Positions 1 to 24,082 of a stretch of DNA of 60,237 nucleotides are shown piece by piece. The DNA is from Alphaproteobacteria bacterium (lineage in GTDB: Bacteria > Pseudomonadota > Alphaproteobacteria > RF32 > CAG-239): the NCBI GenBank assembly GCA_017470165.1, contig JAFUEX010000002.1, positions 1 to 60,237 on the forward strand, read 5' to 3'. Each line of letters begins with the position of its first letter. The stretch's first letter is position 1. The translations under genes and the position numbers were made by a program. The notes below the pieces were generated by a model. It searched no databases, was not told the DNA's origin, and worked only from the letters and a program-made list of their open reading frames with translations.

Positions 1-190
1 AAAACAAAAGAAGCGCCAATCTTTTTCGACTGACGCTCCAGACAAGGTGCAATGATGATGCCCAAATTTACTTTACTTCGACAATAAAATAAAATCATCA
101 CACACCTTGCCCTTTCACACCGTTAAACCATAAACGACCTTTTCTGCCTTGTGACAAACAGAGCTGACGTTCATAGCTATTTCGGTGATT

Positions 191-246
191 CATAATGAAA
201 GCTGATTATTTCGAGTTTTCAACTTTCATTATGCATACATTATAAT
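191..246 (+). promoter_or_regulatory. Promoter with inverted-repeat operator upstream of the small Cys/His protein gene
   Basis: An 11-bp inverted repeat, CATAATGAAAG at 191-201 and CTTTCATTATG at 223-233, lies directly upstream of a perfect -10 hexamer TATAAT at 241-246. A weak -35 (TTCAAC, 218-223, 17-bp spacer) overlaps the right arm. A dimeric repressor binding here would block the polymerase; this is inferred from layout. The rest of 1-360 shows no gene. Confidence 0.45.
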
Positions 247-360
247 ATATATCTTTTTAGTTGTCAACAGAACTTTTGAAAAATATTATGCTATTTCAGA
301 TGCTTAAATGCAAATTTTAATAATTTTGAATATATGAAAAACGACAATAAGGAGGTTTAA

Positions 361-534
361 ATGTCTAAAAATTCATTTACGGAAGCTCTGCAACGGCTTA
401 TTAGATTTCTGTCCGTGGAGAAATTTCGTTGTAAATACTGCGGAAAACTTGTTTTGACAATCCCAAAATCGCACCCAAAAGAATGCAAGCACTCACCTAA
501 CCATCGCCACGACTTCATCACGGTGCATAGGTAA
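361..534 (+). CDS. Small Cys/His-rich (zinc-ribbon-like) protein, 57 aa
   Basis: The ORF starts at ATG 361, five bases after a strong AAGGAGG ribosome binding site (349-355), and ends at TAA 534. The product is basic, with a CKYC pair at residues 24-27 followed by Cys42, His44, His48 and His50, which suggests a small zinc-binding knuckle. I do not recognise the family. It sits at the outer edge of the AT-rich restriction island behind a promoter with an inverted-repeat operator, so a small regulator or an accessory defence protein is possible. The strong Shine-Dalgarno sequence and spacing are the main reasons to call it. Confidence 0.6.
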   Translation: MSKNSFTEALQRLIRFLSVEKFRCKYCGKLVLTIPKSHPKECKHSPNHRHDFITVHR

Positions 535-591
535 ACGCCACCTTAAATCGAAAAATGCAAAAAAATGCCAAAAATCTTACAAAATCACATC

Positions 592-620
592 TTGACATCA
601 GTATCTACACTATATATCAT
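592..620 (+). promoter_or_regulatory. Sigma-70-type promoter
   Basis: A perfect -35 TTGACA at 592-597 and a -10 TATCAT at 615-620 are separated by 17 bp. Transcription would start near 627 and run to the terminator at 912-944. Confidence 0.7.
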
Positions 621-691
621 TGGTACGGAAAATCGGTATAGAGGTCATATTGATTAATTAACTTTTAGATATTGAAAGCGAGGTGATTACT

Positions 692-865
692 TTGTATACA
701 ATGTTGAATGCTTTGACTTGGGCATCAAGGGCTAATACAGCACATAGTCTTACCCAAGCCCGCAACTGGAATGATGTTTTAAACATTACAGTCCAATGCT
801 TCATTACAGAATGCTTGCTACAACAAGCCAAAAATATTGTTCGTAACCAATACTATTACTGGTAA
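692..865 (+). CDS. Possible small protein (57 aa), or a non-coding transcript of about 320 nt
   Basis: This reading frame fills the middle of a self-contained transcription unit: promoter 592-620, terminator 912-944. GAGGTGA at 680-686 is a plausible Shine-Dalgarno for a TTG start at 692; an in-frame GTG at 683 and ATG at 701 are alternatives. The peptide contains WASRANTAHSLTQARNW and ends in YYYW, and I do not recognise it. The unit may instead be a small RNA in which the open frame is accidental. It lies between the small Cys/His gene and the TIGR04141 gene, which is read from the other strand. Confidence 0.35.
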   Translation: MYTMLNALTWASRANTAHSLTQARNWNDVLNITVQCFITECLLQQAKNIVRNQYYYW

Positions 866-911
866 GGTTGCTTGAAAGGATTTCGTTATGTTAAATCGAC
901 ATAGCTGATAC

Positions 912-944
912 AGAGTGGAAGGATTAAACCAACCACTCTTTTTT
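912..944 (+). terminator. Rho-independent terminator
   Basis: The stem AGAGTGG (912-918) pairs with CCACTCT (933-939) and is followed by a T-run to 944. It ends the short plus-strand unit that begins near 627. Confidence 0.75.
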
Positions 945-986
945 ATACTATATCCAAAGAAGTAGTTTATTAAGACTAAGAGAAAG

Positions 987-2624: not shown

Positions 2625-2754
2625 ATTAACTCCTAGTTCAAGTTTTGTTAATCATAGCTATTACTTAGGAATTTTAATGCGAAAAAGCAAGACATTGCAG
2701 TTAAATCTGATAATCTTAAAATACCAATAGTTACCAGTGCAAGATTCGGATATA

Positions 2755-3262
2755 TTAGTATCCTATTATCAATATCCCTTCCAAAGGTATCTGAACTCGA
2801 TTACTCACATATAAGGTATGGAAAAAATTGCATACTTTTTCGAAATCTTTTGATTGCCGATAGATATTTCTAACAGCAATACAGCAATATTTGACGTTAT
2901 GCATCATACACGCCTCGTAGAAGTCCTTCAAAAATTGATAATTGGTATAAGCTCTACCAGCTTCAACTTCTATGACGGTATGATATTCCGAAGAGTAAGC
3001 ATCTGCTTCAAATGCCAAGTTGATAGTTCCATTATGACCAAATAAAACGGGAACTCGTATTTTTTCTTCTAGTTTTTTAGATTTTTCAACTAAATATCCT
3101 TCTTTTTCTAATCCTTTTGACACAATATGCAGAACCTCATCGCTCTCCAATTTGTTACTATTAGAGTCTATTGCCGGTACTACTTAGGGTGAACACATCA
3201 ACTACTTTTTTTAAATGAGTTTCTATTTCTTTATTTTCGGGAAAGTACATCCAATTAATCAT
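2755..3262 (-). pseudogene. Nuclease-like (PD-(D/E)XK-type candidate) gene interrupted by one frameshift
   Basis: The intact-looking 131-residue part (3150-2755) contains FEADAYSSEYHTVIEVEAGRA and later YCCIAVRN, a pattern like a PD-(D/E)XK core (Asp then Glu-X-Glu). A second frame from ATG 3262, with AAGGA eight bases upstream and only 11 bp after the methyltransferase stop, encodes MINWMYFPENKEIETHLKKV and then VDVF. The two pieces read as one protein of about 165 aa if the frame moves by +1 between about 3160 and 3210. I recall intact relatives with the order N-W-F..LKKVVEVF..LSSDEVL..VEVEAGRA..GVLIIGY, which supports fusion. It may be decayed, or the read-through may be lost to a sequencing error. 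Nuclease function is inferred. Confidence 0.6.
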
Positions 3263-3273
3263 TGTTTAAATCC

Positions 3274-4506
3274 TTATTCTGCTGCCATTTTAAATGACTG
3301 TTCTTCCGTTAAATCACTATTTAGGCAATCCAACATTTCGACCAAACAACAACCTATATGATAACTTAAATTAACAGGAACAGCGTTGCCAATTTGTTTA
3401 TATTGTGATGACATTGTGCCTTGAAATTTCCAATTATCGGGAAATGACTGGATTCTCGCATATTCTCTCACTGTCAATGGTCTTGTTTCACTTGGGTGAC
3501 AACGCTCTGTTTGTTTTTGGGCTGGAGCACAAGTTAATGTTAAACTCGGCTCATCCCAAGATAAACGTCTCGCCATACCAGTCTTACCACCAGATAAGTG
3601 GAAACTGCCTTTCATATATTCTTTTTGAATATCAATCGGTAAATCTCTCCAATATCCACCTTCTGGAACTAGTGATAATATTTCAGCTTTACGTTTAGGA
3701 TAGCTTTGACCTTCTGATTTTGGACAATCTTTTAGTGCAGCTCTTAATGAAACTGTATAATTCTTTTCTATAGGAAAGATAAAAGGAATATTCAAATCAT
3801 TGCGAATCGCCATAATTATGAGCCTTTCTCTTTTTTGTGGCACATCTAAATATTGTGCTCTTAAGACCTTATATTGCACCTTATAGCCAATTTCTTTCAA
3901 AGCATTAACCATTGTCTTCAAAGTTCTACCATTGTCGTGTTTTAATAATCCTTTGACATTCTCACCAACGGCAATCTTGGGCATTGTTTCTTTAACGCAA
4001 CGAGCAAATTCAAAGAACAACGTTCCTCTGGTATCCTCAAATCCCATACTTTTTCCAGCATAACTAAAGGCTTGACAAGGGAATCCTGCTTGAACTATAT
4101 CAACTTTACCTTTCCATTTAGAAAAATCTACACTATGAACATCTGCATGAATAATGTTAGTTCCTTTGGGAAAATTATGTTTCAGTGTTGCAACGCAGTC
4201 TTTATCTATTTCATTTAATAAAATATGTTGAATACCTGCATTTTCAAAACCTAAAGCTGTTCCCCCAGCTCCAGCAAATAATTCTATTGCGGTATAAGGC
4301 GATTTAATTTCTGATTTTAATACCTTAAATTCTTCTTCTGATTTATTATTTAGTTTATTTAGCAGGGCAAAAACTTCATCATCATTAAACATACGGTGAT
4401 TTTTATCAGAACGCTCAGCCTTGATTAACCCTTTCTTTTCCCAGCGTCTTATTGTATCAATGGATAAATTTAGTTTTTCACTTACTTCGTGAATAGATAG
4501 CCACAT
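3274..4506 (-). CDS. DNA (cytosine-C5) methyltransferase with N-terminal MerR-like HTH
   Basis: This is a 410-aa modification enzyme. Residues 1-52 form a MerR/excisionase-type helix-turn-helix (IHEVSEKLNLSIDTIRRWEK). The catalytic domain follows: SAM-binding FAGAGG at 77-82, the Pro-Cys nucleophile in GFPCQ (Cys144), ENV at 182-184, QKRER at 224-228, and the C-terminal motifs RPLTVREYARIQSF and QIGNAVPVN. It transfers methyl to C5 of cytosine. Pairing with an Eco47II-type endonuclease predicts the target GGNCC. The HTH could let it repress its own promoter, as is known for several C5 methyltransferases with such domains. Start 4506 has AGGGAG upstream. A hairpin separates it from the endonuclease gene, so the two are probably transcribed or tuned separately. 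Confidence 0.95.
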   Translation of the reverse strand: MWLSIHEVSEKLNLSIDTIRRWEKKGLIKAERSDKNHRMFNDDEVFALLNKLNNKSEEEFKVLKSEIKSPYTAIELFAGAGGTALGFENAGIQHILLNEIDKDCVATLKHNFPKGTNIIHADVHSVDFSKWKGKVDIVQAGFPCQAFSYAGKSMGFEDTRGTLFFEFARCVKETMPKIAVGENVKGLLKHDNGRTLKTMVNALKEIGYKVQYKVLRAQYLDVPQKRERLIIMAIRNDLNIPFIFPIEKNYTVSLRAALKDCPKSEGQSYPKRKAEILSLVPEGGYWRDLPIDIQKEYMKGSFHLSGGKTGMARRLSWDEPSLTLTCAPAQKQTERCHPSETRPLTVREYARIQSFPDNWKFQGTMSSQYKQIGNAVPVNLSYHIGCCLVEMLDCLNSDLTEEQSFKMAAE

Positions 4507-4541
4507 AATTAAATCTCCCTTGTTAACTGATTACAATATAA

Positions 4542-4571
4542 AATAACCCCTGCATATATGCAAGGGTTATT
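4542..4571 (-). terminator. Hairpin between endonuclease and methyltransferase genes
   Basis: AATAACCC (4542-4549) pairs with GGGTTATT (4564-4571), with an inner TGCA/TGCA stem and a TATA loop. T-rich flanks on both strands allow termination in either direction; the leftward use would end the endonuclease message before the methyltransferase start at 4506. Confidence 0.6.
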
Positions 4572-4593
4572 TTTTAATATAAGATGATTTTTA

Positions 4594-5307
4594 TTAATTG
4601 TTTGATTTTTCTTCAATTTCTGTTGCCAAATTATTTACGACATCTTCAATTATGGTCGTACCATCAATCTCATTTGCAACTTCTGCGATATTATCAATTA
4701 GTGCTTCATAAAAATCTTCATCACCCGTCAATCTATACCAAAACTCTTTACCAGCATAAACAGGGTGTGATTTATTAATGGTTTTATACATTGTTGATAG
4801 ATCATCGCTATTGCCATAAAACACACCAACAATACAGTCTATATCAGGATTAAAATCTTTTACCCCATTTGTCCTTGCTAAATTTCTAATTGCCTGAAAA
4901 TGGTTTAATATGGTTGTAATATCGTCTTTATTTATGGTATTTGGGCCAGCTTTAATTTGACAATACTTGTGTCTGCCATCAACTTGATCCTTAAACTCAA
5001 CATCAATACCAGACGTAGTCGAAGCAAAGCCATTTAATACATCTTTGCAAAAAGATTGCATCTGAGTGCCAAAAATTGTATTTATTGAAGTTCCTAAAAC
5101 ACGAGGATAAACAAGAGCCTTGGCAATACACTTACTATCACAATTACCAAAAGCAAAATTAGCTAAATATTTTTGTAAAAAAGGATTGGGATTAAATTCC
5201 TTTAAGTGTTTAGCTTTTTCTGTTTGCTTTTTATGATTAACAACAATCTTTTCTCTAAAAAATTGTTTTGCTTTTTCTAATATTACCTGTTTTTCTGCTG
5301 GTGTCAT
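4594..5307 (-). CDS. Type II restriction endonuclease, Eco47II family
   Basis: This is a 237-aa endonuclease. The stretch SGIDVEF, DQVDGRHKY and then CQIKAGPNTINKDD (residues about 99-129) contains the candidate PD-(D/E)XK residues and matches the Eco47II/Sau96I family, whose members cut GGNCC. It continues with the family segments VGVFYG and GKEFWYRLTGDEDFY. The start at 5307 has GGAGA six bases upstream. It pairs with the downstream C5 methyltransferase as a restriction-modification system. The length is normal and no damage is visible, so the enzyme is probably active. The specificity is a family-level inference. Confidence 0.92.
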   Translation of the reverse strand: MTPAEKQVILEKAKQFFREKIVVNHKKQTEKAKHLKEFNPNPFLQKYLANFAFGNCDSKCIAKALVYPRVLGTSINTIFGTQMQSFCKDVLNGFASTTSGIDVEFKDQVDGRHKYCQIKAGPNTINKDDITTILNHFQAIRNLARTNGVKDFNPDIDCIVGVFYGNSDDLSTMYKTINKSHPVYAGKEFWYRLTGDEDFYEALIDNIAEVANEIDGTTIIEDVVNNLATEIEEKSNN

Positions 5308-5650
5308 ATTGATTCTCCATTTTTATTTAAGGCGATTCTACATTAAACATTACGAAAAGCAAGTGATAATTGACTTTATTTACCAATCTTTCTTATAACA
5401 CAATAGGATTGCAGAAAAAATTACGACCAGTTACACATAAACCTTAAATGGGTAAAAACATTATAAAAAAATTGCTTCGTTTACATTATTAAGATATGAA
5501 TCAAGGTAAATAACGTTTTTTTCGTCATACAATGCGATGGTGCTGTTTTACGCAAGTTTATCGCGAAAAATCAATTTCTGCATTGTCTGATGGGAAAATC
5601 AAAGGCAAATGATGTGTTTTAATTTAAAACTTGATTTTTATAAAAAATGT
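5308..5650. other. AT-rich intergenic stretch, no gene seen
   Basis: About 340 bases upstream of the endonuclease carry no convincing ORF, tRNA or repeat. The leftward promoter of the endonuclease and the rightward promoter of the following RNA must lie here, but I see no clear consensus pair. Confidence 0.4.
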
Positions 5651-5672
5651 GATACTTTACCTTCTAATTGGT

Positions 5673-5784
5673 CGTATCGATTCTTCGGTATGGGAACGTT
5701 ATTTAATGTTCGGGTGCGTACTTTGAGAGCCTAAACACGCCATAAATTCAGCCCTCACTTCATTTGAGAAGTGTGGCTTTTTTT
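5673..5784 (+). ncRNA. Structured RNA: two tight hairpins followed by a terminator (sRNA or leader)
   Basis: Three stems occur in a row. Hairpin 1 is CGTATCGA-TTCT-TCGGTATG (5673-5692, 8 bp). Hairpin 2 is GAACGTT-ATTT-AATGTTC (5694-5711, 7 bp). A terminator follows, with CACTTC (5756-5761) pairing GAAGTG (5768-5773), AGCC pairing GGCT, and seven Ts to 5784. The region has no ORF. It lies 54 bases upstream of the frameshifted gene at 5839, so it is either a small RNA or an attenuator or riboswitch-like leader. It matches no RNA family I know. Confidence 0.55.
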
Positions 5785-5838
5785 ATGTCTTAATTTCTCC
5801 GATGAAGTTTATGTTAACTAAATTTTTGGAGAATAACT

Positions 5839-6595
5839 ATGAGAAAACATATTGAAGACGTAGAAATTGCACTGATGTATACAGCTGACCTCGAACTAGT
5901 CCTTTTTCTTAGAGAAAATGGCATTGGAATTGACCGTCTACTTTATTGTAGACAACTGAAATCTATCAAAAATAATATCAGGACAACTGTTACTTGAACT
6001 GTTTAAGAAACGTTGTCTTAATGCAAAGGATATTACAGATGTTCTAGGAAATTCACGAGTAGACACGATGGTTAAAAAAATATTTAACTTTTTACCTGAT
6101 GAATCTTTTAAAGTTTTTTTTCCTGTTCTTACTAAAAGTAAAATTGTGTTTAACCCCATAATTAAACTAACAGACTTTATTGTTTCTGTTTCTGACTTAT
6201 CCACTATACAGATATATCTTAGAAATGAAAATGAGAAGAAAAAGCAAAAGGATAAAGACAATGCTACAAACAAAATTAAAATTGTAAGTAGTGAAGCTAA
6301 AGAATTTGATGATTACACCATCTATTATTGTTTTAAGATTCATCAAGATGGTGCTTATGACTTAGAAATGGGGATAGATCACAAATTTACAATTACTTGG
6401 CGAGAAGATGCTGCATTATATCTTGATAATAGATTTTATGATAAAAACAGCTATTCAGATTGGAAACTCTTTAGTTTTCCTAAAAACATTAAGATTGAGC
6501 TTATGTTGTTTAAGCTGCCTGAGCCAGATGTTCCTGTATCAACTGATATTGCGAATACATCAGCATTATCTGGTTGTGATGCTGGTACAAGTTAG
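5839..6595 (+). pseudogene. Uncharacterised island gene interrupted by a frameshift
   Basis: ATG 5839 follows GGAG by seven bases and opens a frame that runs to TGA 5997 (52 aa: MRKHIEDVEIALMYTADLEL...). The +1 frame continues without a break into the ORF ending at 6595 (GQLLLELFKKRCLNAKDI...). Removing one A from the AAAAA run at 5968-5972 joins them into a product of about 250 aa (KSIKIISGQLLLELF). The second half has a charged Lys-rich middle and a beta-rich tail with DYTIYYCFKIHQDGAYDLEMG. I do not recognise the family. The gene lies downstream of the hairpin leader and upstream of a strong terminator. A true slippage event or a sequencing error are both possible. Confidence 0.55.
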
Positions 6596-6642
6596 TAATA
6601 AACTCTGTTCGAAATGTGCTGTTATCGTACCGCCATCAAAAC

Positions 6643-6668
6643 AAAAGCGCCTATTAGGGCGCTTTTTT
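6643..6668. terminator. Bidirectional terminator at island edge
   Basis: AAAAGCGCC (6643-6651) pairs with GGCGCTTTT (6658-6666) around TATTAG, with T-runs on both strands. It ends the rightward island gene and the leftward addBA message, and marks the island/core boundary. Confidence 0.85.
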
Positions 6669-6699
6669 ATGGAATTATTGGGAAAAGATAACCTTATAA

Positions 6700-9600
6700 C
6701 TAGTCAATCTTCATAATGTGAGAGGTGTTGGTCCAAAGGATATAAGTTTCAATTTGTTTGGTGGGGTAAAGCCTTGCGATAAGACTGCGGTAGGCTCGCA
6801 TTTGTTTGAGATAGGCTGTGGGGACTTCGTTCAATGCCGAGGCGGCCGGCCGATTGGTTTTATAATCAATAATCATTACCTTGTCTTCGGTTATGACCAA
6901 ACGGTCGATTTGTCCAGATATGATGCGGTCGTCAACCAATCCCATTACCGAGACCTCGGCAACGGACGATGGGGAGAAAAGCGGAGCAAACTGCGGTGAT
7001 GATATCAATGCCGTTACTTCGGTAAAAATTTTGTCTTGCTCTGCGGCAGAAAATTCAGCGGCCTGAGTTTTGAGATAGGCTCGGATGGCATCTTCACGTT
7101 TGTCAGGAGAGTTGGCAGGAATAAATTGCAGCAGTTTGTGTATAATCAATCCGCGACTGTAGAGGCGGGTGGAATCAGTTTGGCTCAGAGGTGATGAAGC
7201 GCCTTGCTGGGCTTCGTCTTGGTGTGAGGGAGTAAGCGGTTTGGCCAGAGGGGATTCTTGCGGAGCCGGAGACTTAAGCCACACGGGGAGGGTGACAGGC
7301 GCTTCGATGGGAGCTTTTTTTTGTGAGGCAAGTGATGGTGTGAGAGAGTTTATATGATAGCGAATTACTCCTTGTTCGTCAGCGGAGGCAATTTGTGCCA
7401 AAGCAGAGCGGCATAAATTGTACCACGAATCGTCATTCGGGGCGTTGGAATTGGAATAGCCGCAAATATAAAGTTGCTCACCGGCACGGGTGAGGGCAAC
7501 ATACAGCAGTCGGTGGTATTCTTCCAGAGAGGCAGCCTGATCGGATGATTGGATGGTCTGACAAGCAGAATTGTAGTAATTTTTGTTAAGAGGATAAAAA
7601 ATTTGACTATTGTCACGCAGCCATCTTGCATCTTGTTTGAGTTTTTTGAGCCGCAAGGTGTCGGGGAGGATAACAACCGGAGCTTGTAATCCCTTGGAGG
7701 CATGGACGGTCATTATCCGTACGGCATCAAAATCGGTTTGCTCTAAGTTGCGTTTAATTTCGGGGTCGCCGCTTTGCATCCAGTCGACAAACAATTGCAG
7801 TGACGGAGTATGGTCTTGCTCAAATGATAAGGTGAGATTGATAAACTCGTCAATGGCATCTTCGCATTCGATACTCAGACGGGAGACGAATTTGCCGCGA
7901 CCGTTCATTGCGGTAAGAATGTGATTGAAAAACTCAAACGGACGGGATTGTTTGCCCAATTTGAGCAAAGAACGCAGTTGGTCGGCAGTTGCAATATAAT
8001 TCGGGTTGGAACAGAGCCTTTCCCATAAGGTGAGGGGAGCGCGATTGTAACAAAGGGTGAATAAATCGTCGTCATCCAAGGAAAACAGCGGTGATTTTAA
8101 GAGGCAGGCTAAGTTGAGGTCGTTTTGGGGCAGAAGTACAAAATTGGCCGCGGCCAACAGGTCATTGATGGCGATTTGGTCGTTGAGGTTGATTTTATCA
8201 ATACCGGTGACGGAAACCTGTGCATTTTTGAGGGCGCGCACCATTTCTTCCACAAAGGAATTGCGGCGTTGTACCAAAATGAGAAAATCGCGATAGTGCA
8301 GCGGTTCGCCGTTGGCTTTGCGCTCACCTGAGTCAACCTTGGAGCGGATGGTCTCGGCGATTTTTTGGGCCAGCAGTGATGAGGCTGACTGCGAGGGGTG
8401 GCGCTCAATAGGGGGATACCACACATCATCGTCGGTGGTATCGTTTAAGGGGTAGGTAACCGGCCAAATTTCGATGTGGCCGCCCTCGCCGATGCGGGAG
8501 GGTTCGTGGCGGATGTTATCACCTGTTGCCACCACCCCGCAAGCCGCAGGAAGTCGGGAAAAGGTGGTGTTTACCATATCAAGTATGGCAGAAGTAGAAC
8601 GAAATGATACTTCCATATTGATGGTTTGAAATTGGGGAGCAGTTGCGGCAAAGTGGGCGTGCATCTTTTCAAACTCGGCAACATCCGCTCCCTGAAAGGA
8701 ATAAATTGATTGTTTGCGGTCGCCGACGGCAAAAATGGTGGGAGCGGAATTTTTAGCACCCATACCGGCAAAAAATTCAGAGGCCAGTGAGCGGATAATT
8801 GACCATTGCTGCGGCGAAGTATCCTGAGCTTCGTCAATCAAGATGTGGTCAATGCCGCCATCAAGTTTGTAGAGCACCCAAGCCGCATCGGAAGAATTGG
8901 CCAGCAACCGGTCGGTTTTGACAATCAGGTCATTATAGTCCAGTTGTGAGTGGATGAATTTGTAATGGTCATAACGGCTGAGCAGTTCGGAGGCGAGATT
9001 GAGCACGGCGATGGTGGAATCGCGCAAATCGATATCGCGCAGACGAGAAAGACTGTCAATTAGTTGTGAACATATATTTTGATAAATTTCGGGGGCGGAG
9101 GGGAATTTGCCGATGGATTTTTTAACCAATAATTTTTGATTGAGGCTGTGGTCTTTGTTGAGCAAAACTTGGGTGACTGCCGCAAAGTCGCGCGAGCGAA
9201 GCGCTGAGGCTAATAAGGAGGCATTGGTTTGCGAGACAAGAGTGCCGGCTTGCAAGGCGGCAATGAGCGTTGTAAAATCATCAAGGCTGACATTTTGCCA
9301 AAAAGCTGCAATGACGGTTTCTGAAGAGGTGTCATCGGTAAGATGCAACTGATGATTGATGTTTTGCAAAGCCGCTTCGATATTGGGAAAGGCGGCAAAA
9401 TAGTTGTTCAGCATACTGCAATTGGTAGTTATGGAGGCCAAAATTTTAGGAAAGGCGGTTTCGCTTGAATGTTCGGTAAGATAACTCAGCGCTTGTCGTA
9501 TGGCGGGGGTGGTGATATGACCTGAAAGGATGTCCTGTTTAATTTTTTGCAACACCTCTTGGGTTTCACGGTCGTCAATAACCGAAAAATAGGGCGAAAT

Positions 9601-10044
9601 TCCGGCTTCAATTGGAAAACGCTTGAGAATTTCCTGACAAAAACTGTGGATGGTTTGGATTTTGATGCCCTCGGGGGTGTCAAGCAAAACGGCAAATAAG
9701 CGTCTGGCCTGTTCTACCAATTCCACCGAGGGTGATGAGATATCAAGCAGAGATGATAATTGGGAGGATAGCTCGCGGTCATCAATTGAAGCCCATTTGG
9801 CCAAGCGGTCGATAATGCGGTTGTTCATTTCAGAGGCCGCGGCTTTGGTATAGGTAAGGCACAAAATGTGTGCAGGGGAGGCGCCGTTGAGCAGCAGCCG
9901 CAAAACGCGGTCGGATAGAACTTTGGTTTTGCCGGTACCGGCTGAGGCCTCCACCCAAACCGATTGTTGCGGGGAGGCTGCTTGATATTGGCGCTGCGAG
10001 GCCAGTCGGATACGGGTTTGACGTTGGGTGGAAATGTCGTTCAA
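6700..10044 (-). CDS. addA: Double-strand break repair helicase-nuclease AddA (alphaproteobacterial type)
   Basis: This is a UvrD/Rep-type superfamily 1 helicase of about 1114 aa with a C-terminal RecB-like nuclease. Visible motifs are Walker A ASAGTGKT near residue 35, LTYTKAAASEM, the Walker B region IDEAQDTSPQQW, QSIYSFQGAD, VHASKGLQAPVV, and the nuclease core SGQIDRLV..IIDYKTNRP near the C-terminus. With AddB it processes broken ends for RecA loading. The open frame extends to ATG 10074, but I choose TTG 10044: AGGAG lies six bases upstream and the start overlaps the addB stop as TTGA, typical of coupled translation. It is the last gene of the rph-rdgB-addB-addA run. Confidence 0.95.
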   Translation of the reverse strand: MNDISTQRQTRIRLASQRQYQAASPQQSVWVEASAGTGKTKVLSDRVLRLLLNGASPAHILCLTYTKAAASEMNNRIIDRLAKWASIDDRELSSQLSSLLDISSPSVELVEQARRLFAVLLDTPEGIKIQTIHSFCQEILKRFPIEAGISPYFSVIDDRETQEVLQKIKQDILSGHITTPAIRQALSYLTEHSSETAFPKILASITTNCSMLNNYFAAFPNIEAALQNINHQLHLTDDTSSETVIAAFWQNVSLDDFTTLIAALQAGTLVSQTNASLLASALRSRDFAAVTQVLLNKDHSLNQKLLVKKSIGKFPSAPEIYQNICSQLIDSLSRLRDIDLRDSTIAVLNLASELLSRYDHYKFIHSQLDYNDLIVKTDRLLANSSDAAWVLYKLDGGIDHILIDEAQDTSPQQWSIIRSLASEFFAGMGAKNSAPTIFAVGDRKQSIYSFQGADVAEFEKMHAHFAATAPQFQTINMEVSFRSTSAILDMVNTTFSRLPAACGVVATGDNIRHEPSRIGEGGHIEIWPVTYPLNDTTDDDVWYPPIERHPSQSASSLLAQKIAETIRSKVDSGERKANGEPLHYRDFLILVQRRNSFVEEMVRALKNAQVSVTGIDKINLNDQIAINDLLAAANFVLLPQNDLNLACLLKSPLFSLDDDDLFTLCYNRAPLTLWERLCSNPNYIATADQLRSLLKLGKQSRPFEFFNHILTAMNGRGKFVSRLSIECEDAIDEFINLTLSFEQDHTPSLQLFVDWMQSGDPEIKRNLEQTDFDAVRIMTVHASKGLQAPVVILPDTLRLKKLKQDARWLRDNSQIFYPLNKNYYNSACQTIQSSDQAASLEEYHRLLYVALTRAGEQLYICGYSNSNAPNDDSWYNLCRSALAQIASADEQGVIRYHINSLTPSLASQKKAPIEAPVTLPVWLKSPAPQESPLAKPLTPSHQDEAQQGASSPLSQTDSTRLYSRGLIIHKLLQFIPANSPDKREDAIRAYLKTQAAEFSAAEQDKIFTEVTALISSPQFAPLFSPSSVAEVSVMGLVDDRIISGQIDRLVITEDKVMIIDYKTNRPAASALNEVPTAYLKQMRAYRSLIARLYPTKQIETYILWTNTSHIMKID

Positions 10045-12926
10045 TTGTCTTCTCCTTGAGATGAAACAGACCATTCTTTTACTCTGGCTAAATGCTCATA
10101 ATCGGAGTATTCCGGCAGATGTTTGGGGTTGGGACGGCTCAGATATCCAGTTTCGGGGAAAGAAAACAGATTGATAATGGTGAGAATTTGGTCACGGGTT
10201 TTTTGTAAAATCGTGTTGATTTCGCTATCGATAACGATGGTTTTGTCGTTTAACTTCCAGTACATCAGCGAGTTAATTTCACCGGAGGACAGGCTTTCAA
10301 AACCGCCGGCATCGGCAATCAGCGCTTCTATCGGCAGTTGCGGCGCGTAACCGCCTTTGACCTCTTTGATTTGACGGGCGCGGCCGGTTTTGTAGTCGAT
10401 TATGTTATAACTGCCGAGCACCGTGCGGTCAATGCGGTCGGCTTTGGCATAAATTTCAAATCTTCCCATCGGGGTGTTATCAAAATACATATGCCCCCAA
10501 ACTTCGCTGTATATGCGGCTGATTTGTGAGCGGTAGTCTTTTTCAATGGTTAGTATCCAGTCGATAATTTGCTGATAACGCGGCAGCCAAAACGCCAACT
10601 TGTCTTTGGTTATGTCGTCGCAAAGAAATGCCTTTTGCCCCATAGTGATGAGGATTTGACGAGCATCATCAGGCAAATGTTCGGGGTAAGTGCGGGCAAA
10701 CTCATCAAGAATGTTGTGGACGATGTTGCCAAAGTCGGCCGCGGTTAATTCGGCGTTGAGTTCGCCTAACGGTTTGAGCTTGAGGATGTATTCGGCAAAG
10801 ACACTATAGGGGTCGCGCAACAATTTTTCAAAAGCACTGGCCGAAAGTTTTACCGGTCGGGCGCTGACCGGCGGATGTGGCGCGGGAGGTGATATTTTGA
10901 CATAAGTGTTCGGAGTGTCCAGCAGGTGCCCGAGTTTTAGAGGTAACGGCGCGTTGAGTTGTTGCGGACTGAGGCCGCCGGCCTGCAACACGGTGGTAAG
11001 ACGCATAAGCCAGCGTGATTTGACGGTTTGGGCGCCGTCGGACATTTGACTGCGAGTGATGTACACTTCGGGAGCACCCAACAGACCGGCGAAATCTAAT
11101 GCGGTAACGCCGATTTGCTGTTCGGGCAGATTGAGACCGAAATCGCGTTTCATCGGGCGCGACATCCAAGGGTCGGATGGAGCAGAGGCCGGCCATATCC
11201 CCTCGTTGCAGCTCCCGATAATGATGGTATCGTAGTGATTGAGGCGAGCTTCAAGCGGCCCCAATATTTTGATGCGAGGATGACTGAAAGCGGTGCTGCG
11301 AACCATAATGCCGCTCATCAATGCCTCAAACAGCTCAAGATATTCCGCAGGGTTGATGTTGCCGATGACGGACGCGTTGTCAAGCAGGGAAGAAACAAAA
11401 TCGGCGGCAGCTGCTCCATCGTCACCTTCCCACAGCAAGGTGCTGCCATCAATTGTGTCGGTTGAGCTTAAATCTTCGGCAAGACGGAGATGAGTTTGGA
11501 ACAAGTCGGCAAAATCGGCCTGAGGCTGCTGACACAATTCTACCAGAGGATTAAGCGCAGAGTTTATGGCATCAAGAAAATGCTGAGCTTCGGTATCAGC
11601 TTGTTTTTCCCGCATAAGGTTTTTGTCAACACGTTCGGCCATGGCAGCGGCCAATTCTTGCGATAGATGAGCGGAGAGGAGCGAGTGTTTTATCAGGCTC
11701 AGTATCTCAGGTTTTGAATCGCGGTTAAGGCAGGTTTCAGCGATGCTGCGCATAAAAATACCCCACGAAGTTTGTGCAAGCGGAACGCCGGCCGAATCGT
11801 CAATAGTGATGCCCCAGCGTTCAAGTTCGCCGGAGACGCGACGCGCCAGATTGCGATCGGGGGTTACCAGCGCGATGGTGCGGGCAGGAGTTTCCAAAGT
11901 TTGCCGCAACAAAACAGCAATTGCCACTGCTTCTTCGCGGATGGACGGACATTCAATCAGATGGATGTTGTCAAGGCATTCATTCGAGATACGGCCATCA
12001 AGTTGCCGCCAAATGTGCGAAGTGGAGGCCGGTCGCATAATCTCGCTGATAAGTTTTTCGCGCAAGGGAGCTGCAGGTGGGGTGAGGTCTGTGATTTGTT
12101 CGCGCTTGAGCTCCAAAAAATCCAGCAGTTGTTTAAGTTCAAACTGAGGATGGGTTTCGTCAATTTGCTGCCATGAGGCCTCATCAAGCAGTTTATCTAA
12201 TCCGGCAAGGTAAACTTCGCCTAAAGGCAGAGACAAGATGGTTTTGAGAAGATTTTTCATTGCCGGAGAAACTGCGGTAGTGCCGGCGATGATAATTTTT
12301 TTATCCGGCGGTGAATTTTGCCAAAGCTCGCTTTGTTTGTTCATCATAATGTTGCGGCGAGTTTGGGCATCAATGCAAAAGCGTTCTTGTAGAATATTCG
12401 GCCAATAAGCGGTGATAATGCTGAGAAATTTGAGGGTTTCTTGCCAGTGAGATGCATATTCTAAAGGAACAAGCCGGTCAAGCGTGTCCCAATTGAGGCC
12501 TTGTAAAGACACCTCATCAAGCAGTGTGCCAAGCTCTTGCGCCAAATGACAGGATTGGGCCAGAGAAATCTGTTTGATGCCAAACTCCAAAGGGCGTCCG
12601 GCAATCAATTTCATCAACAAAAGTGTACGCTCCAAAGGAGAAATGACCGGTGGAATTTGTAAAAATTCTTCGGCGAGCTGCGGAGAAAAAAATAACATTT
12701 CGTCTTCGCGGATATCACCAATGGCGCGCATTTGCGGTAGCAGGGTCGGGTTCATACCGTTGAGGCGGACAAAAGCCTCAGAAAGTGAGCGGCAAGCACG
12801 GCGATTGGGAAGCAAAATCAGAGCTTCGGACAAAGCCAAAGGATTGGCGGCATAATCGTCCAGCAGTTTTTGCGCCAGAGTTTCAACAAAATTGTTGGAT
12901 ACGGAAATGTTATAGATTTCAGACAT
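10041..12926 (-). CDS. addB: Double-strand break repair protein AddB
   Basis: This is a 961-aa partner of AddA. The N-terminus carries ALILLPNRRACRSLSEAF, the degenerate helicase-like region of alphaproteobacterial AddB. The C-terminus has a RecB-type nuclease motif, AKADRIDR..YNIIDYKTGRA, followed by GYAPQLPIEALI, a Q-loop typical of these nucleases. It overlaps rdgB by 8 bp upstream and addA by 4 bp downstream, so the four genes are translationally coupled. Length is normal for the family. Confidence 0.95.
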   Translation of the reverse strand: MSEIYNISVSNNFVETLAQKLLDDYAANPLALSEALILLPNRRACRSLSEAFVRLNGMNPTLLPQMRAIGDIREDEMLFFSPQLAEEFLQIPPVISPLERTLLLMKLIAGRPLEFGIKQISLAQSCHLAQELGTLLDEVSLQGLNWDTLDRLVPLEYASHWQETLKFLSIITAYWPNILQERFCIDAQTRRNIMMNKQSELWQNSPPDKKIIIAGTTAVSPAMKNLLKTILSLPLGEVYLAGLDKLLDEASWQQIDETHPQFELKQLLDFLELKREQITDLTPPAAPLREKLISEIMRPASTSHIWRQLDGRISNECLDNIHLIECPSIREEAVAIAVLLRQTLETPARTIALVTPDRNLARRVSGELERWGITIDDSAGVPLAQTSWGIFMRSIAETCLNRDSKPEILSLIKHSLLSAHLSQELAAAMAERVDKNLMREKQADTEAQHFLDAINSALNPLVELCQQPQADFADLFQTHLRLAEDLSSTDTIDGSTLLWEGDDGAAAADFVSSLLDNASVIGNINPAEYLELFEALMSGIMVRSTAFSHPRIKILGPLEARLNHYDTIIIGSCNEGIWPASAPSDPWMSRPMKRDFGLNLPEQQIGVTALDFAGLLGAPEVYITRSQMSDGAQTVKSRWLMRLTTVLQAGGLSPQQLNAPLPLKLGHLLDTPNTYVKISPPAPHPPVSARPVKLSASAFEKLLRDPYSVFAEYILKLKPLGELNAELTAADFGNIVHNILDEFARTYPEHLPDDARQILITMGQKAFLCDDITKDKLAFWLPRYQQIIDWILTIEKDYRSQISRIYSEVWGHMYFDNTPMGRFEIYAKADRIDRTVLGSYNIIDYKTGRARQIKEVKGGYAPQLPIEALIADAGGFESLSSGEINSLMYWKLNDKTIVIDSEINTILQKTRDQILTIINLFSFPETGYLSRPNPKHLPEYSDYEHLARVKEWSVSSQGEDN

Positions 12927-20013: not shown

Positions 20014-20634
20014 ATGACGGAAGCAAAAGGCGACAGATTGAAAATTTTTGTACACAAAGAGATGAGAAAAAGTCTGCTGAAGTGCGCGCGTCGGATGGTA
20101 AAGAGAGACGGCATCGCAGCGCTGAGCGCTCGCAAATTGGCGGGTGAGGCCAATTCATCCGTGGGGATGATTTATAATATTTTCGGGACGATGGACAATT
20201 TGATTGCCGAGCAGAATGTGATGACGCTGGAAGAATTGTACGAGCAGATGTGCAAGGTGAGTTTGGGGGATAATGCGTTTAATAATCTGAACCGGTATGC
20301 CGATATTTTGTCAGCTTATATTGTGGCGAATCCGAATTTGTGGAACTTGCTATACAGTCGGCATTTGTCATCGGGTGCGGCCAAAAGCAGTATGGCGGAG
20401 GCGCGGGTGATTAAGAAGATTGACCTGTTGATTTGTTGGCAGGCGGCGGGAATGATAGGCGATATGAGCATAAGAGAAAAGCGGATGATGATTAAGGTAC
20501 TGGAGATGAGTCTGTTTGCGCTGAGCGGCTATCTTTTGGGCAACAAGTTGCAGGAGACTTCCGGATTGAACCGGCATAACTTATGCAAACTGTTGATGAA
20601 TACTTATGTTGCAGGGCTGAACAGTTTGCGATAG
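20014..20634 (+). CDS. TetR-family transcriptional regulator
   Basis: The frame is open from 19906, but the first 36 residues are hydrophobic and unlike the family. I choose ATG 20014, giving 206 aa that begin MTEAKGDRLKIFVHKEMRK. The TetR HTH is at about residues 15-65 (LLKCARRMVKRDGIAALSAR..SSVGMIYNIFGTMDNLIAE). The C-terminal ligand/dimer domain is variable. A TATAAT at 19956-19961 lies in the upstream region. The next gene starts 10 bp later, followed by the DGR reverse transcriptase with an overlap, so this regulator may control the retroelement operon; that is inference from spacing. Confidence 0.85.
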   Translation: MTEAKGDRLKIFVHKEMRKSLLKCARRMVKRDGIAALSARKLAGEANSSVGMIYNIFGTMDNLIAEQNVMTLEELYEQMCKVSLGDNAFNNLNRYADILSAYIVANPNLWNLLYSRHLSSGAAKSSMAEARVIKKIDLLICWQAAGMIGDMSIREKRMMIKVLEMSLFALSGYLLGNKLQETSGLNRHNLCKLLMNTYVAGLNSLR

Positions 20635-20643
20635 GATAAAGAA

Positions 20644-21201
20644 GTGACTGATGTGTTTTACACTAAATGGCTGAAATTTTGGGAATACTTAAATTCTGCG
20701 GAGTTTTTGGGAGAGTTTTTTAACAACCGGTTTTATCTGATATTGATGGTGATTGTGCTGATACATATCAAAAATTTCACCTATAAATCGATGTTTATGG
20801 CGGCGTTGATTAATATTCCGGGGACATTGCTGCACGAGCTGACGCATTTTATAACCGGACTGGTGTTGAATGCGCGGCCGTGCAATTTTACAGTGTTTCC
20901 CAAACGGGCGCCGGACGGATATGTTATGGGGAGTGTGGGTTTTCGCAACATTACTTTCTATAATGCGGTGCCGTCGGCTTTGGCGCCGCTGGCGTTGTTG
21001 CCCATAGGGTTTTATGTCAACCGCTATTTGTTGCCCGAGATGGAGCCGACATTGCTTAATTGTATTTTGTATATGCTGCTGCAGACGGTGCTGATTGAGA
21101 ATGCGATACCTTCGCGAGCCGATTTCAGGGTGGCCGGATTGTATGTCAGCGGAGTTATCTTTTATTTGGGCTTAGGGGTGGCCACCTTGGTTTGGCTGTG
21201 A
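20644..21201 (+). CDS. M50-like membrane metalloprotease candidate (HELTH)
   Basis: The 185-aa protein starts at GTG 20644 with AAAGAAG just upstream; GTG 20653 is an alternative. It has several membrane segments. IPGTLLHELTHFITG (about residues 59-73) gives an HExxH zinc motif inside a helix, and ENAIPSRADFRV near 155 resembles the second M50 motif (N-x-x-P...D). Substrate unknown. It lies between the TetR gene and the reverse transcriptase, overlapping the latter by 10 bp, so it is in the same transcript as the DGR. Confidence 0.6.
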   Translation: MTDVFYTKWLKFWEYLNSAEFLGEFFNNRFYLILMVIVLIHIKNFTYKSMFMAALINIPGTLLHELTHFITGLVLNARPCNFTVFPKRAPDGYVMGSVGFRNITFYNAVPSALAPLALLPIGFYVNRYLLPEMEPTLLNCILYMLLQTVLIENAIPSRADFRVAGLYVSGVIFYLGLGVATLVWL

Positions 21202-22511
21202 AGCAGCAACGGGGGGAAGAATCGGAACAATTTGCGGCGATTAACGATTGTCCGTTTGTTAAACTGGATGATTTGTATCGGGCCTATTATGAATGCCGCA
21301 AGCACAAAAGGCGCACGAGTAATGCCATAGCTTTTGAGCTGGATTTTGAGCGCAATCTTATAGATTTGTGGCGAGAGATAAATTCTGGAGAATATCAGAT
21401 AAGCCGCTCAATTGCTTTTACGGTGGACTATCCAGTGAAAAGGGAGGTATTTGCGGCGGATTTTCGCGACAGGGTGGTGCATCATCTTATCATTGACAAA
21501 ATAAATCATTTGTTGGAGGCGGAATTTATCCCCGACAGCTATAGTTGCCGTGAGGGAAAAGGAACATTGTTCGGGGCAAAAAGGGTGCAGCAGATGTTGG
21601 CTCGGTGCTCAAGTGAGGGGAAAGAAGACTGTTATATCCTAAAACTGGACATTCGTTCGTTTTTTATGAGTATTTATAAGCCGCTGTTGTATCAAAAGTT
21701 GGAAGATTTTTTGCAGGCCAAATATCAAGGTGATGATTTGGCGATAATTTTATCGCTGATACGGATGACAATTTTTAACAATCCGGATGAAAGTTGCCGT
21801 ATAAAGGGAAGTTTGCGCGATTGGGACGGGCTGCCGCATCATAAAAGTTTGTTTTGGGCCGAGCGCGAGCGCGGACTGCCGATAGGCAATTTGACCTCGC
21901 AGATATTTGCCAATTTTTATCTCAATGGGCTAGATAAGTTTGTAACGCAAACTCTGGGTATCAGGTATTACGGGCGGTATGTGGATGATTTTGTGCTTAT
22001 CCACAAAGACAAAAGTTTTTTGCAAGAGGCGCATCGCAAGATTGCCGAATTTTTGGATTCGGAACTCAAATTGTCATTGCATCCGCAAAAAGTTTATCTG
22101 CAACACTACAGCAAAGGAGTCAGGTTTATCGGTGCGGTTATCAAATATGACCATATTATAATCGGACGGCGAACCAAGGGCAATTTATACAACAAGATTT
22201 ATGGTTTGCTGCCGATTATGGCGCAAAGTGCCGGAAAAACTTTGGAGATGTTGCCCTGCTTTAATTCCAGTATCAATTCATATTTGGGGTTGATGCGGCA
22301 CTACAAAACTTATCATCTGCGCGGTCATATTCTGCGCTTGCTGAGCTCAACTTTTTTGGCGCCGGCTCTGGAAAAGGTTGCGGATAATTCGCGATTGAAG
22401 GTTGCCAAAATCTTTATGCCGAAGGAGCAAACCAAACATAAGCTGCGGCGGCAAAGACAATATCGTCGTCATTATCATCAACGAAAGGAGAAAAAATATG
22501 GCAGTGTGTAA
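21192..22511 (+). CDS. DGR-type reverse transcriptase
   Basis: The 439-aa protein is an RNA-directed DNA polymerase of the diversity-generating-retroelement class. Palm motifs are LKLDIRSFFMSI (Asp153), GLPIGNLTSQIFANFYLN (228-245) and GRYVDDFVLIH (Asp265/Asp266). The GNxxSQ form of motif 4 is the DGR signature as I know it; group II intron and retron enzymes usually differ there. No maturase or HNH domain follows; the tail is Arg/Lys/His-rich (KLRRQRQYRRHYHQRKEKK). The start is TTG 21192 or GTG 21198, overlapping the previous gene. The 3' end overlaps the Avd gene by 14 bp. It would copy the template repeat with adenine-specific errors. Confidence 0.93.
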   Translation: MAVKQQRGEESEQFAAINDCPFVKLDDLYRAYYECRKHKRRTSNAIAFELDFERNLIDLWREINSGEYQISRSIAFTVDYPVKREVFAADFRDRVVHHLIIDKINHLLEAEFIPDSYSCREGKGTLFGAKRVQQMLARCSSEGKEDCYILKLDIRSFFMSIYKPLLYQKLEDFLQAKYQGDDLAIILSLIRMTIFNNPDESCRIKGSLRDWDGLPHHKSLFWAERERGLPIGNLTSQIFANFYLNGLDKFVTQTLGIRYYGRYVDDFVLIHKDKSFLQEAHRKIAEFLDSELKLSLHPQKVYLQHYSKGVRFIGAVIKYDHIIIGRRTKGNLYNKIYGLLPIMAQSAGKTLEMLPCFNSSINSYLGLMRHYKTYHLRGHILRLLSSTFLAPALEKVADNSRLKVAKIFMPKEQTKHKLRRQRQYRRHYHQRKEKKYGSV

Positions 22512-22848
22512 TCAACTTCCGATATATCGGGATTCGTACCAATTGTTGCTGGAGGTTTATCAGGTTACCAACAAGTTTGCGCGGGATTTTAAGTATAATC
22601 TGGGACAGGATATGAAGCGCGACTGTTTGGATATGGTGCGGCATTTGTATAATGCCAATCACGATGTAGCGGCGAGAGCGGAGCATATTGACAAATTTTT
22701 GAGCACATTCGAGGTGTTAAAAGTGGAAATCAGGCTGTGTGTGGATATGAATATGTTAAGTATCAACAAACTGGCGCAGTTGAGTTTGCTGATGGAGAGT
22801 ATATCGCGGCAGGCGCGGGGGTGGCGAGCCAAGAGTCGGCGGAAGTAA
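22498..22848 (+). CDS. avd: DGR accessory variability determinant (Avd), four-helix bundle
   Basis: The 116-aa protein begins at ATG 22498 behind AAAGGAG (22484-22490). The sequence LPIYRDSYQLLLEVYQVTNK, then RDFKYNLGQDMKRD and the C-terminal LSLLMESISRQARGW matches bAvd/S23-type four-helix-bundle proteins, which bind the DGR reverse transcriptase and are needed for mutagenic cDNA synthesis. The C-terminus is basic (RAKSRRK), fitting nucleic-acid contact. It overlaps the reverse transcriptase gene by 14 bp and ends 13 bp before the oppositely oriented template repeat. Confidence 0.92.
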   Translation: MAVCNQLPIYRDSYQLLLEVYQVTNKFARDFKYNLGQDMKRDCLDMVRHLYNANHDVAARAEHIDKFLSTFEVLKVEIRLCVDMNMLSINKLAQLSLLMESISRQARGWRAKSRRK

Positions 22849-22860
22849 AAAACACTTTTA

Positions 22861-22980
22861 TTAAAGAAGCTGGAAGGCTCGGACGTAATTGTTGTTGTAC
22901 TTATTGTTGTTGTTCCGGTTGCCATCAGACATATTCAGTTTCCAAGAATTGTTGGAGTTGTTCTCGGAAGACGACCGTCT
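22861..22980 (-). repeat. DGR template repeat (TR)
   Basis: Read on the minus strand this 120-bp stretch would encode SSSENNSNNSWKLNMSDGN, then RNNNNKYNNN and YVRAFQLL, then stop. Thirteen Asn codons (nine AAC, four AAT) make it the A-rich template from which a C-type-lectin-like variable repeat is rewritten; the NNNNKYNNNYVR ending is the usual DGR pattern. It is not a gene: the frame closes with a stop just upstream. A 12-bp near-palindrome AGACGACCGTCT (22969-22980, plus strand) marks its 5' side. Adenines lie on the minus strand, so the TR RNA must be read opposite to the reverse transcriptase and avd. Confidence 0.9.
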
Positions 22981-23135
22981 TACAAATAAAATGTTATCAC
23001 TAAAATTTTATGTGCGACGCCGCTACTGGACGTTGCGGATAACCCTTTTTTAATAAAAGAAAAAGCTCGCTTCCAACGACACGAAATCGACTGGAATTCC
23101 GGCAAGACCCATCCGCCGTTCTTGACTTGAGTGTG

Positions 23136-23164
23136 AATATAGCCGAAATAACCGGCATGGTCAA
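23136..23164 (-). promoter_or_regulatory. Promoter for the template-repeat RNA
   Basis: On the minus strand TTGACC (plus 23159-23164) and TATATT (plus 23136-23141) are separated by exactly 17 bp. Transcription would start near 23129 and reach the TR after about 150 nt, giving a dedicated non-coding TR transcript. No plus-strand gene uses this region. Confidence 0.7.
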
Positions 23165-23211
23165 GTGTAATATTTCAGGTGATATTCTTTTAATGACGAT
23201 GAGGCCCCTGA

Positions 23212-23239
23212 TTTTTCAGGAACTATCGTTCCTGAAAAA
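23212..23239. repeat. 12-bp perfect hairpin near the DGR
   Basis: TTTTTCAGGAAC (23212-23223) and GTTCCTGAAAAA (23228-23239) flank a 4-nt loop: TATC on the plus strand, GATA on the minus. No T-run follows the GC part on either strand, so it is not a standard terminator. Its position upstream of the TR promoter is suggestive but its role is unknown. Confidence 0.7.
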
Positions 23240-23437
23240 GAGGTGACAGCAAGAGGAAAGGGGTGACATTTCTCTTGTGGTCGGGAGACCCTTTACTCGC
23301 TGTTTTACAAACGTCTCGGGGAGGGGAACAGAGGAAAGATGGAGGGCGGGGAAAAATACTGTTTATCCCAAGAAAAATTCTTGCAATCAAGTTTTAGTTG
23401 TTATACTGATGAAGTGTGTACTAGTAAGGAGTTTTTT
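23240..23437. other. Intergenic stretch with GTGACA words, no gene seen
   Basis: The region is purine-rich, with GGTGACAG at 23242-23249 and GGTGACA at 23262-23268. Similar words recur in the intergenic region at 48560-48680. The frame open from 23339 is continuous with the next gene but lacks a ribosome binding site, so I do not extend that gene into it. Confidence 0.4.
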
Positions 23438-24082
23438 ATGATGTTTTTTACCAAATCGGAAAAGACAATAGTCTTTAATGTCGTAAGACAATTCGTGTAT
23501 TTTTGTTTGGTTTTTGCTTTTGTGGGGTTGTTGAATTTTTTATCCTCAGTATATCATCAACAAACTTTTGCCGAGCACTGCATTGTCGAAAATATTCAGC
23601 TGGGTTTGCTGATTACCTCCGGAGTGATATTTTTAGCGCAACTGAAATTGCGTCCGGAATATGCCTGTGTTTTGTGGCTGTTGGCCTCGTGCTCGTTTTT
23701 GGGGGCTTGTCGAGAAATGGATATGTTCTTTGATAAAAATTTGCCGATTATAAGCTGGCGAATCGGTTTTATCTTTCCGCTGATTGCACTTTATAAGGCT
23801 TGGCAATACCGCTGGTGTTTGAAGAAAACGCTGCTGCGCTTTTTTACCTCGCCGGCGTTTTATATGATGTGCTGTGCGATGATGATTGTATTGCCGATAG
23901 CACAATATATCGGGCATCGTCCGCTGATGGTTAATGTTTTGGGCACCACAAAAATAGCCGCGGTTAAAGAGTTGTTTGAAGAGGCGCTGGAAGCTGTCGG
24001 ATATCTGCTGATATTTTTGAGTTCAATCGAATGTTATTTCAGCCTGCCGAAAACCGTCAAAGTCAAGGTCAATCGCAAATAG
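23438..24082 (+). CDS. Multi-span membrane protein of unknown function
   Basis: The protein has 214 aa from ATG 23438, seven bases after TAAGGAG (23425-23431); ATG 23441 is the next codon. About six hydrophobic segments are visible (VYFCLVFAFVGLLNFL, LGLLITSGVIFLAQL, ACVLWLLASCSFLGAC, IGFIFPLIALY, MMCCAMMIVLPIAQYIG, AVGYLLIFLSSIE). It is Cys-rich in the membrane parts. I do not recognise a family. It overlaps the convergent glycosyltransferase gene by 14 bp. Confidence 0.75.
   Translation: MMFFTKSEKTIVFNVVRQFVYFCLVFAFVGLLNFLSSVYHQQTFAEHCIVENIQLGLLITSGVIFLAQLKLRPEYACVLWLLASCSFLGACREMDMFFDKNLPIISWRIGFIFPLIALYKAWQYRWCLKKTLLRFFTSPAFYMMCCAMMIVLPIAQYIGHRPLMVNVLGTTKIAAVKELFEEALEAVGYLLIFLSSIECYFSLPKTVKVKVNRK

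Follow-up and report, generated by a model that had tools for sequence, protein, structure and literature searches.

A diversity-generating retroelement with its template repeat on the strand opposite to its reverse transcriptase, and a candidate structured template RNA closed by a long-range helix

Genes and features of the element

The stretch of DNA analysed here, called the window throughout, comprises 60,237 nucleotides (positions 1-60,237, forward strand) of contig JAFUEX010000002.1 from Alphaproteobacteria bacterium, assembly GCA_017470165.1. The host is an uncultured gut alphaproteobacterium, represented by a metagenome-assembled genome (MAG) of 1.45 Mb in 26 contigs with 88.9% completeness, in which the window contig is numbered C17. 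The window contains a diversity-generating retroelement (DGR), in which the reverse transcriptase (RT) and the accessory protein Avd are encoded on the plus strand and the template repeat (TR) lies on the minus strand. The element extends back to approximately position 23104, where a 5′ leader of the template begins.

The RT gene occupies 21192..22511 on the plus strand, and is identified by a match to Pfam RVT_1 (1.6e-18), by the sequences LPIGNLTSQ and YVDD, and by its position in the RT tree described below. An SQ motif within a GN..SQ block is a mark of DGR-type RTs; the RVT_1 match, the SQ motif within its block and the YxDD motif are all present. The open reading frame (ORF) is listed from a TTG codon at 21192, the likelier start being the GTG at 21198, which, read from the sequence, overlaps the stop codon of the upstream host gene. 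The avd gene follows on the same strand at 22498..22848 (Pfam bAvd, 1.8e-14, 54.6 bits against a cutoff of 40), and its ATG overlaps the end of the RT ORF by 14 nt. Directly after avd is an Asn-codon-rich repeat, whose minus-strand translation reads ...NNSWKLNMSDGNRNNNNKYNNNYVRAFQLL. The sequence-only reading of this DNA had recognized a DGR-class RT with GNLTSQ and YVDD motifs, a coupled Avd and a TR with its adenines on the minus strand, and these assignments are borne out by the matches above and by the variable repeat (VR).

The variable repeat lies in a prophage gene

A search of the host's own genome with the TR, as the sequence-only reading had suggested, located a VR on another contig at G000:C16:23191-23300, with 81% identity to the TR (22867..22976, minus strand). 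There are 21 differences over 110 aligned positions, and 20 of them fall at the 38 minus-strand adenines of the TR (14 changed to G, four to T and two to C); the single difference elsewhere is a T to C near the 3′ end. The binomial probability that at least 20 of 21 mismatches would lie at adenines is 8.3e-9, and 71 of the 72 non-adenine positions are still identical between the two repeats. The minus-strand reading of the TR is thus established beyond its codon content, because the direction of mutation in the VR points to minus-strand adenines. By the features tested, namely RT, Avd and an adenine-directed TR/VR pair, the element is a DGR, and its TR is on the strand opposite to its RT.

At E <= 10 the TR has nine matches in its own genome, which are the TR itself, the VR, and seven matches of 14-24 bases (E 0.02 or worse). 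Lcl_C or flagellin-like loci of the same genome were considered as additional targets and rejected: six loci, drawn from 14 own-genome matches to a relative's diversified flagellin-like target and including two in the Lcl_C region, match the TR at no more than 45% of non-adenine positions.

The ORF carrying the VR is listed as 235 amino acids long (L009:6099-6806, minus strand), and as 154 amino acids long when read from an inner ATG (L009:6102-6563). The shorter reading matches phrog_4245 at 5.5e-5 and has no Pfam match at E <= 0.001. The ORF also shows 51% identity over 56 amino acids (E 2e-4) to the Lcl_C region of a relative's target. Its neighbours encode a repressor-like protein, a DNA methyltransferase and a short protein from an uncharacterised phage family, and contig C16 further encodes terminase, head-tail adaptor, tail and tail-fibre-like proteins and an integrase, beyond which lie mutL- and pgi-family genes. 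No related RT was found in this prophage: the own-genome search at E <= 1e-20, the threshold used throughout for related RTs in own and family genomes, matched only contigs C17 (the window) and C15. The host DGR appears to diversify a prophage gene in trans; that DGRs can have remote targets is noted in PMC8144416. Used as a query against viral contigs, the prophage target found no relative.

A structured leader and a long-range helix around the template repeat

Immediately 5′ of the TR, on the minus strand, is a predicted structured leader (22986..23104), identified by covariation and by the model R1, a covariance-type RNA model of the leader alone built from 23 rows; the window scores 74.5 bits against R1, its own row being part of the model. 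Three parts make up the leader: a hairpin (H0) flanked by GCC and GAGC, a strand rich in A/T, and the nested stem H1/H2. The second of these pairs with sequence at the 3′ end of the TR, forming a long-range helix that closes around the TR and that we call P1. The 5′ strand of P1 lies at 23045..23059 (minus strand; complementarity, alignment and covariation), and its 3′ strand, at and just after the end of the TR and outside the R1 model, lies at 22855..22869 (minus strand), 93% complementary to 23045-23059. The arms of P1 are 175 nt apart in the window, and the 3′ strand is 6 nt from the avd stop codon.

Two alignments support this structure. A1 contains 27 alphaproteobacterial units; because tandem copies as well as close relatives are among them, the units are not independent. 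RNAalifold predicts 42 pairs for A1, of which 30 have changes in both partners. Among the 39 main pairs, 94.9% of cells are paired, and in 30 pairs both partners change, values that none of 500 shuffles reached on any measure, and slid controls gave 40-52% paired. P1, H1 and H2 are all retained in the window row, P1 and H2 having a single mismatch each. A3 contains 15 loci, all with R1 matches, from outside the Alphaproteobacteria, comprising ten from Bacteroidota and five from Gammaproteobacteria (four of these being Legionella kin), and has a similar plan that includes P1 and one extra hairpin: 96.6% of cells are paired and 25 of 52 pairs change on both sides, again as high in none of 500 shuffles. 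P1 in A3 shows more conservation than covariation: both partners change in three of its 14 pairs. Folding of the window unit alone gives a weak signal (z -2.15, with 5 of 200 shuffles as good).

Rfam has no match on the window TR unit (only isrK, at 22.4 bits against 50), and at the units of seven relative loci it gave only tmRNA models. No description of such a leader was found in the DGR literature searched, which does not cover the main BPP-1 RNA work, so that absence from print is not established. The folded template RNA, with its 5′ leader and with P1 around the TR, is the element that is new here.

Occurrence of the leader in other DGRs

R1 was compared with a set of 62 loci from genome contigs, and with 153 genomes of the family, own genome included; the two sets overlap, and so the two counts are not independent. 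At E <= 0.05 it matches 47 of the 62 loci, each with a match on the RT strand, including Bacteroidota, Legionellaceae, Treponema and Chlorobium; 11 of the 47 supplied rows of the model and some others are from the same genomes as rows, so that these match by construction, and the E-values are rough. Weaker matches on the opposite strand occur in L041, L049 and L088 (E 3e-4 to 0.02). The opposite-strand place in L041, checked in its twin L170, has no TR. In the family there are at least 51 matches, in at least 25 of the 153 genomes (own included), these counts being lower bounds obtained with stricter filters and 24 candidates scored per genome. Across the order, one further genome only was added. 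Thirteen of the family matches are on contigs without a related RT, some at contig ends. A weak opposite-strand match in one genome, G096 (E 9e-4), has no TR after it and was dropped from the count.

Among viral contigs, R1 matches four of 15 loci. R1 has no match in BPP-1 1-12000, in stretches of Vibrio VP58.5 and Shewanella QDWS, or in Shewanella baltica pSbal02. A different cassette order is seen at a viral-contig DGR RT (L178:2335-4030), where the leader match is downstream of the RT on the same strand.

Leader-TR units also occur in tandem arrays of two to seven upstream of the RT (L048, L019, L024, L026, L027; G067:C129), often with template sequences that differ between copies. These arrays support a leader-TR unit that is self-contained.

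Two further loci carry the leader in other settings. A complete leader-TR unit lies between host genes at G046:C10:48028-48287 (L142, L171); searches of that genome gave neither a related RT (E <= 1e-20) nor a VR (E <= 0.01). At G135:C21 (L172:1409-1712) the leader is followed by a decayed TR that runs into what appears by eye to be a flagellin-like C-terminus, and this locus looks like a DGR relic.

Relation of the window to collinear relatives

Six sister loci (L040, L041, L042, L051, L079, L082) carry leader, P1 and TR upstream of the RT and on the RT strand, and avd comes directly after the RT in all four whose contig extends past the RT; in most other relatives avd is upstream. Their best segments are 56-65% identical to the window, with one piece at 71%. 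The RT tree of 47 rows, drawn with a midpoint root, places the window in a clade of seven (100/98) as the outermost branch, next to a group formed by the other six (99/95). Because the sister loci have the leader-TR unit upstream of the RT on its strand, followed by avd, the window is best described as carrying a flip of the RT-avd block: compared with these loci it evidently keeps the whole leader-TR-P1 unit, and only RT-avd is flipped.

A scan for adenine-directed TR/VR pairs found one in 15 of 22 relative loci and in 19 of 20 others, the latter over the first 9500 bases of each locus. In all 34 the TR of the best pair is on the same strand as the RT, once a palindrome-like artefact that took first rank in L087 is set aside. 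Minus-strand rows of lower rank were seen in L049, L060 and L074; that in L049 is the same pair with roles swapped, in which 3 of 13 changes are not at A. As a control, the scan recovered the opposite-strand TR of S. baltica pSbal02. On contigs with a related RT, 36 R1 units, at 19 RT loci, share the strand of the RT, and the window is the only match with a TR that does not.

Upstream of the RT is a host core gene of 185 amino acids (20644..21201, plus strand), present in 34 of the 36 genomes of the genus, own included; it has no match in a Pfam search, and we take its product, by eye, to be membrane-protein-like. Both junctions of the flipped block are at ORF edges, with the GTG start of the RT on the host stop codon and the P1 strand close against the stop codon of avd, and the stretch of approximately 28-42 nt between P1 and the likely RT start in sister loci is gone from the window. 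A single flip of the RT-avd block in the window lineage would be the simplest history, and a longer one is possible. Invertible DNA was considered as its basis and rejected: there are four inverted pairs in 20300-23700, none of them flanking the RT-avd block, and the best pair is P1.

In five relatives that lack the DGR, the genes upstream are in the same order. Eight proteins encoded downstream in the window had no match in the 7-12 kb compared from these relatives, and the gene that follows in one of them, presumably (by eye) a proton pyrophosphatase, has no match in the MAG of the window. The flip is therefore not reconstructable in detail.

Comparison with known systems

DGRs described as inverted have been in print since 2012, when DiGReF reported them, as its group 4, in Shewanella baltica OS155, Vibrio sp. 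RC586 and Photobacterium angustum S14 (PMC3521204), and an RT-inverted cassette class was counted in 2019 (PMC6642488). Like the window, the DiGReF cases have the RT on one strand and the TR on the other. The layout pointed out in the sequence-only reading is confirmed here, and is less new than was implied there. S. baltica OS155 pSbal02, the one DiGReF case in which the layout was checked here, has its RT on the plus strand at 4935-6239, its TR on the minus strand at 6221-6358 and its VR on the minus strand at 7121-7258; RT and TR are convergent, and the VR has 17 adenine changes and no others.

The S. baltica element differs from the window in several ways. Its RT is only 29.9% identical to the window RT. 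An ORF that looks avd-like by eye is on the TR strand and divergent from the RT, whereas avd in the window follows the RT on the same strand. Its VR is close by on the TR strand, whereas that of the window is on another contig in a prophage, and the R1 leader of the window was not found there. On the basis of identity, the window RT appears to fall outside the Shewanella/Vibrio inverted cluster, its clade mates being approximately 56-65% identical and collinear; the S. baltica RT is absent from the tree. Because the nearest kin of the window are collinear, the flip of the RT-Avd block was probably a separate event in the window lineage, independent of the S. baltica-type inversion.

The collinear gut Alphaproteobacteria DGRs (the six sister loci) share leader, P1 and TR with the window, and have all parts on one strand. 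In L040 and L042, the two with a local VR, the target is a flagellin-like gene downstream, whereas that of the window is a prophage gene.

Detailed knowledge of template recognition by DGR RTs comes mainly from BPP-1, which shares with the window an RT, Avd, a TR and adenine-directed VR changes. Its order is avd-TR-spacer-brt on one strand, with 144 nt from TR to brt, whereas the TR of the window is opposite to the RT. According to PMC12875486, the structure by which the BPP-1 template is found and delimited is a spacer 3′ of the TR, which recruits RT-Avd. In the window the predicted structure is 5′ of the TR, and no separate spacer is visible in the few nucleotides between P1 and the avd stop codon; a BPP-1-type 3′ spacer of approximately 140 nt leading into the RT appears to be absent, unless it overlaps coding sequence. 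At ten collinear loci, candidate RT start codons come approximately 7 to 42 nt after P1, too close for a 144-nt spacer like that of BPP-1 to fit in between, unless such a spacer runs into the RT gene. The window RNA 3′ of P1 would be antisense to avd, which suggests either that no spacer is needed, as the sister loci indicate, or that antisense avd serves as one; for the latter there is one window sequence only, without a comparative basis.

Proposed mechanism and alternatives

On balance we lean towards the view that a large DGR lineage, spanning Alphaproteobacteria, Bacteroidota and Legionellaceae, uses a self-contained structured template non-coding RNA, in which the 5′ leader and P1 would take the place of the BPP-1 3′ spacer, keep the TR in a closed loop and define the points at which copying begins and ends. 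The leader also has matches in Treponema and Chlorobium; the alignments that include P1 cover Alphaproteobacteria, Bacteroidota and Gammaproteobacteria. If the proposal is true, it would explain the tandem arrays, the detached templates, and the convergent layout of RT-avd and template with a prophage target in trans. With its covarying 5′ leader and a helix closed around the TR, seen in many DGRs, such an RNA offers a second architecture that can be tested.

For the window itself we consider it likely that RT-avd is flipped relative to a template RNA that is transcribed separately, and that the flip is tolerated. The plus-strand transcript for RT and Avd would be coupled to the host gene upstream of them. 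The template would be a second, short RNA of approximately 270 nt, which would start near 23130 on the minus strand and fold so that P1 brackets the TR. RT-Avd would bind this RNA and copy it from near P1 to near the leader stem, making errors at adenines, and the resulting cDNA would rewrite the VR of the small protein in the C16 prophage. The flip could be tolerated because the parts that the template RNA requires would all be located 5′ of the TR or in the P1 strand that directly follows it, so that co-transcription with the RT gene would be unnecessary. A separate supply of TR RNA and of RT/Avd, as the sequence-only reading proposed, fits this anatomy. The candidate start of the template RNA is a sigma70-like promoter, TTGACC-17-TATATT, at 23136..23164 on the minus strand, identified by consensus match only. 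The sequence is present as had been claimed, approximately 160 nt before the TR and with 10 of 12 consensus matches, a score reached by 1.7% of 2000 first-order resamples made from the 121 nt that precede the leader; over 20500-23600, promoter-like sites are at chance level (seven found, 6.4 expected).

Several points weigh against this account. As a promoter match the sequence is modest, and six collinear relatives score only 7 to 9 of 12 over the corresponding stretch. No terminator was found in the region, so that the two transcripts could interfere, and with convergent transcription the two RNAs may dampen each other. Covariation was counted on the alignment from which the structure was derived, which favours the structure, even though the slid and shuffled controls are far below. 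Shared helices are no proof that RT-Avd binds the leader. The flipped layout is known from a single MAG contig, and searches for a near copy gave none in 14 relatives on viral contigs (52% identity at best), in the 62 genome-contig loci or in the 25 other family genomes with a related RT. Finally, the VR cannot be dated relative to the flip, and its changes may predate it.

This last point leaves room for an element that was active while TR, RT and avd were collinear, wrote the VR then, and has since been disabled by the inversion. The VR sequence rests on one contig, and decay seems to occur in the family, as in the decayed TR of L172 and the TR unit of G046 that lacks a related RT or VR. Set against this are the intact RT, Avd, leader, P1 and TR, the almost complete match of TR and VR at non-adenine positions, and the placement of the junctions at ORF edges, and we regard loss of function as unlikely.

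We think it improbable that the layout is an assembly artefact, in which a TR-first cassette with a true order of TR-RT-avd on one strand was misjoined. The sequence is indeed from a single, incomplete and fragmented MAG, and near relatives with TR and RT on one contig are collinear. However, the host gene is complete, the RT ORF that it adjoins has an N-terminus of normal length, the stop of the one overlaps the start of the other, P1 ends just short of the avd stop, and the P1-to-RT stretch of the sister loci is absent, whereas a misjoin would be expected to cut ORFs more often. The junctions thus argue against a random misjoin, and are no replacement for reads.

It is very improbable that the window TR is copied by the second DGR-like RT of the genome, leaving the window RT-Avd a bystander: that RT (G000:C15:63370-63819, L039) has IGNFTSQ and YCDD and an RVT_1 match, but it is only approximately 30-40% identical, adjoins its own candidate variable protein (recognised by eye), and R1-type leaders adjoin RTs of the window RT's family at 19 other loci.

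The window, with its RT-avd block flipped and its template unit kept, is a natural experiment that uncouples the template from the enzyme genes. If the arrangement works, templates could be supplied apart from RT-Avd, which bears on how DGRs gain new targets, and here a prophage gene may be diversified by a host-encoded enzyme.

Flagellin-like genes in the window and its relatives

Flagellin is named as a DGR target in one phrase of PMC6642488. The window itself has a flagellin-like gene at 47296-48408, whose similarity to the diversified flagellin-like target of the relatives is mostly to the ends of that target and does not include the variable region. The targets in the relatives are at L042:6922-9282 and L040:6761-8182; Flagellin_N is found in both and Flagellin_C in L042, and in both the VR is within an Lcl_C-like region, the Lcl_C match being below the Pfam cutoff.

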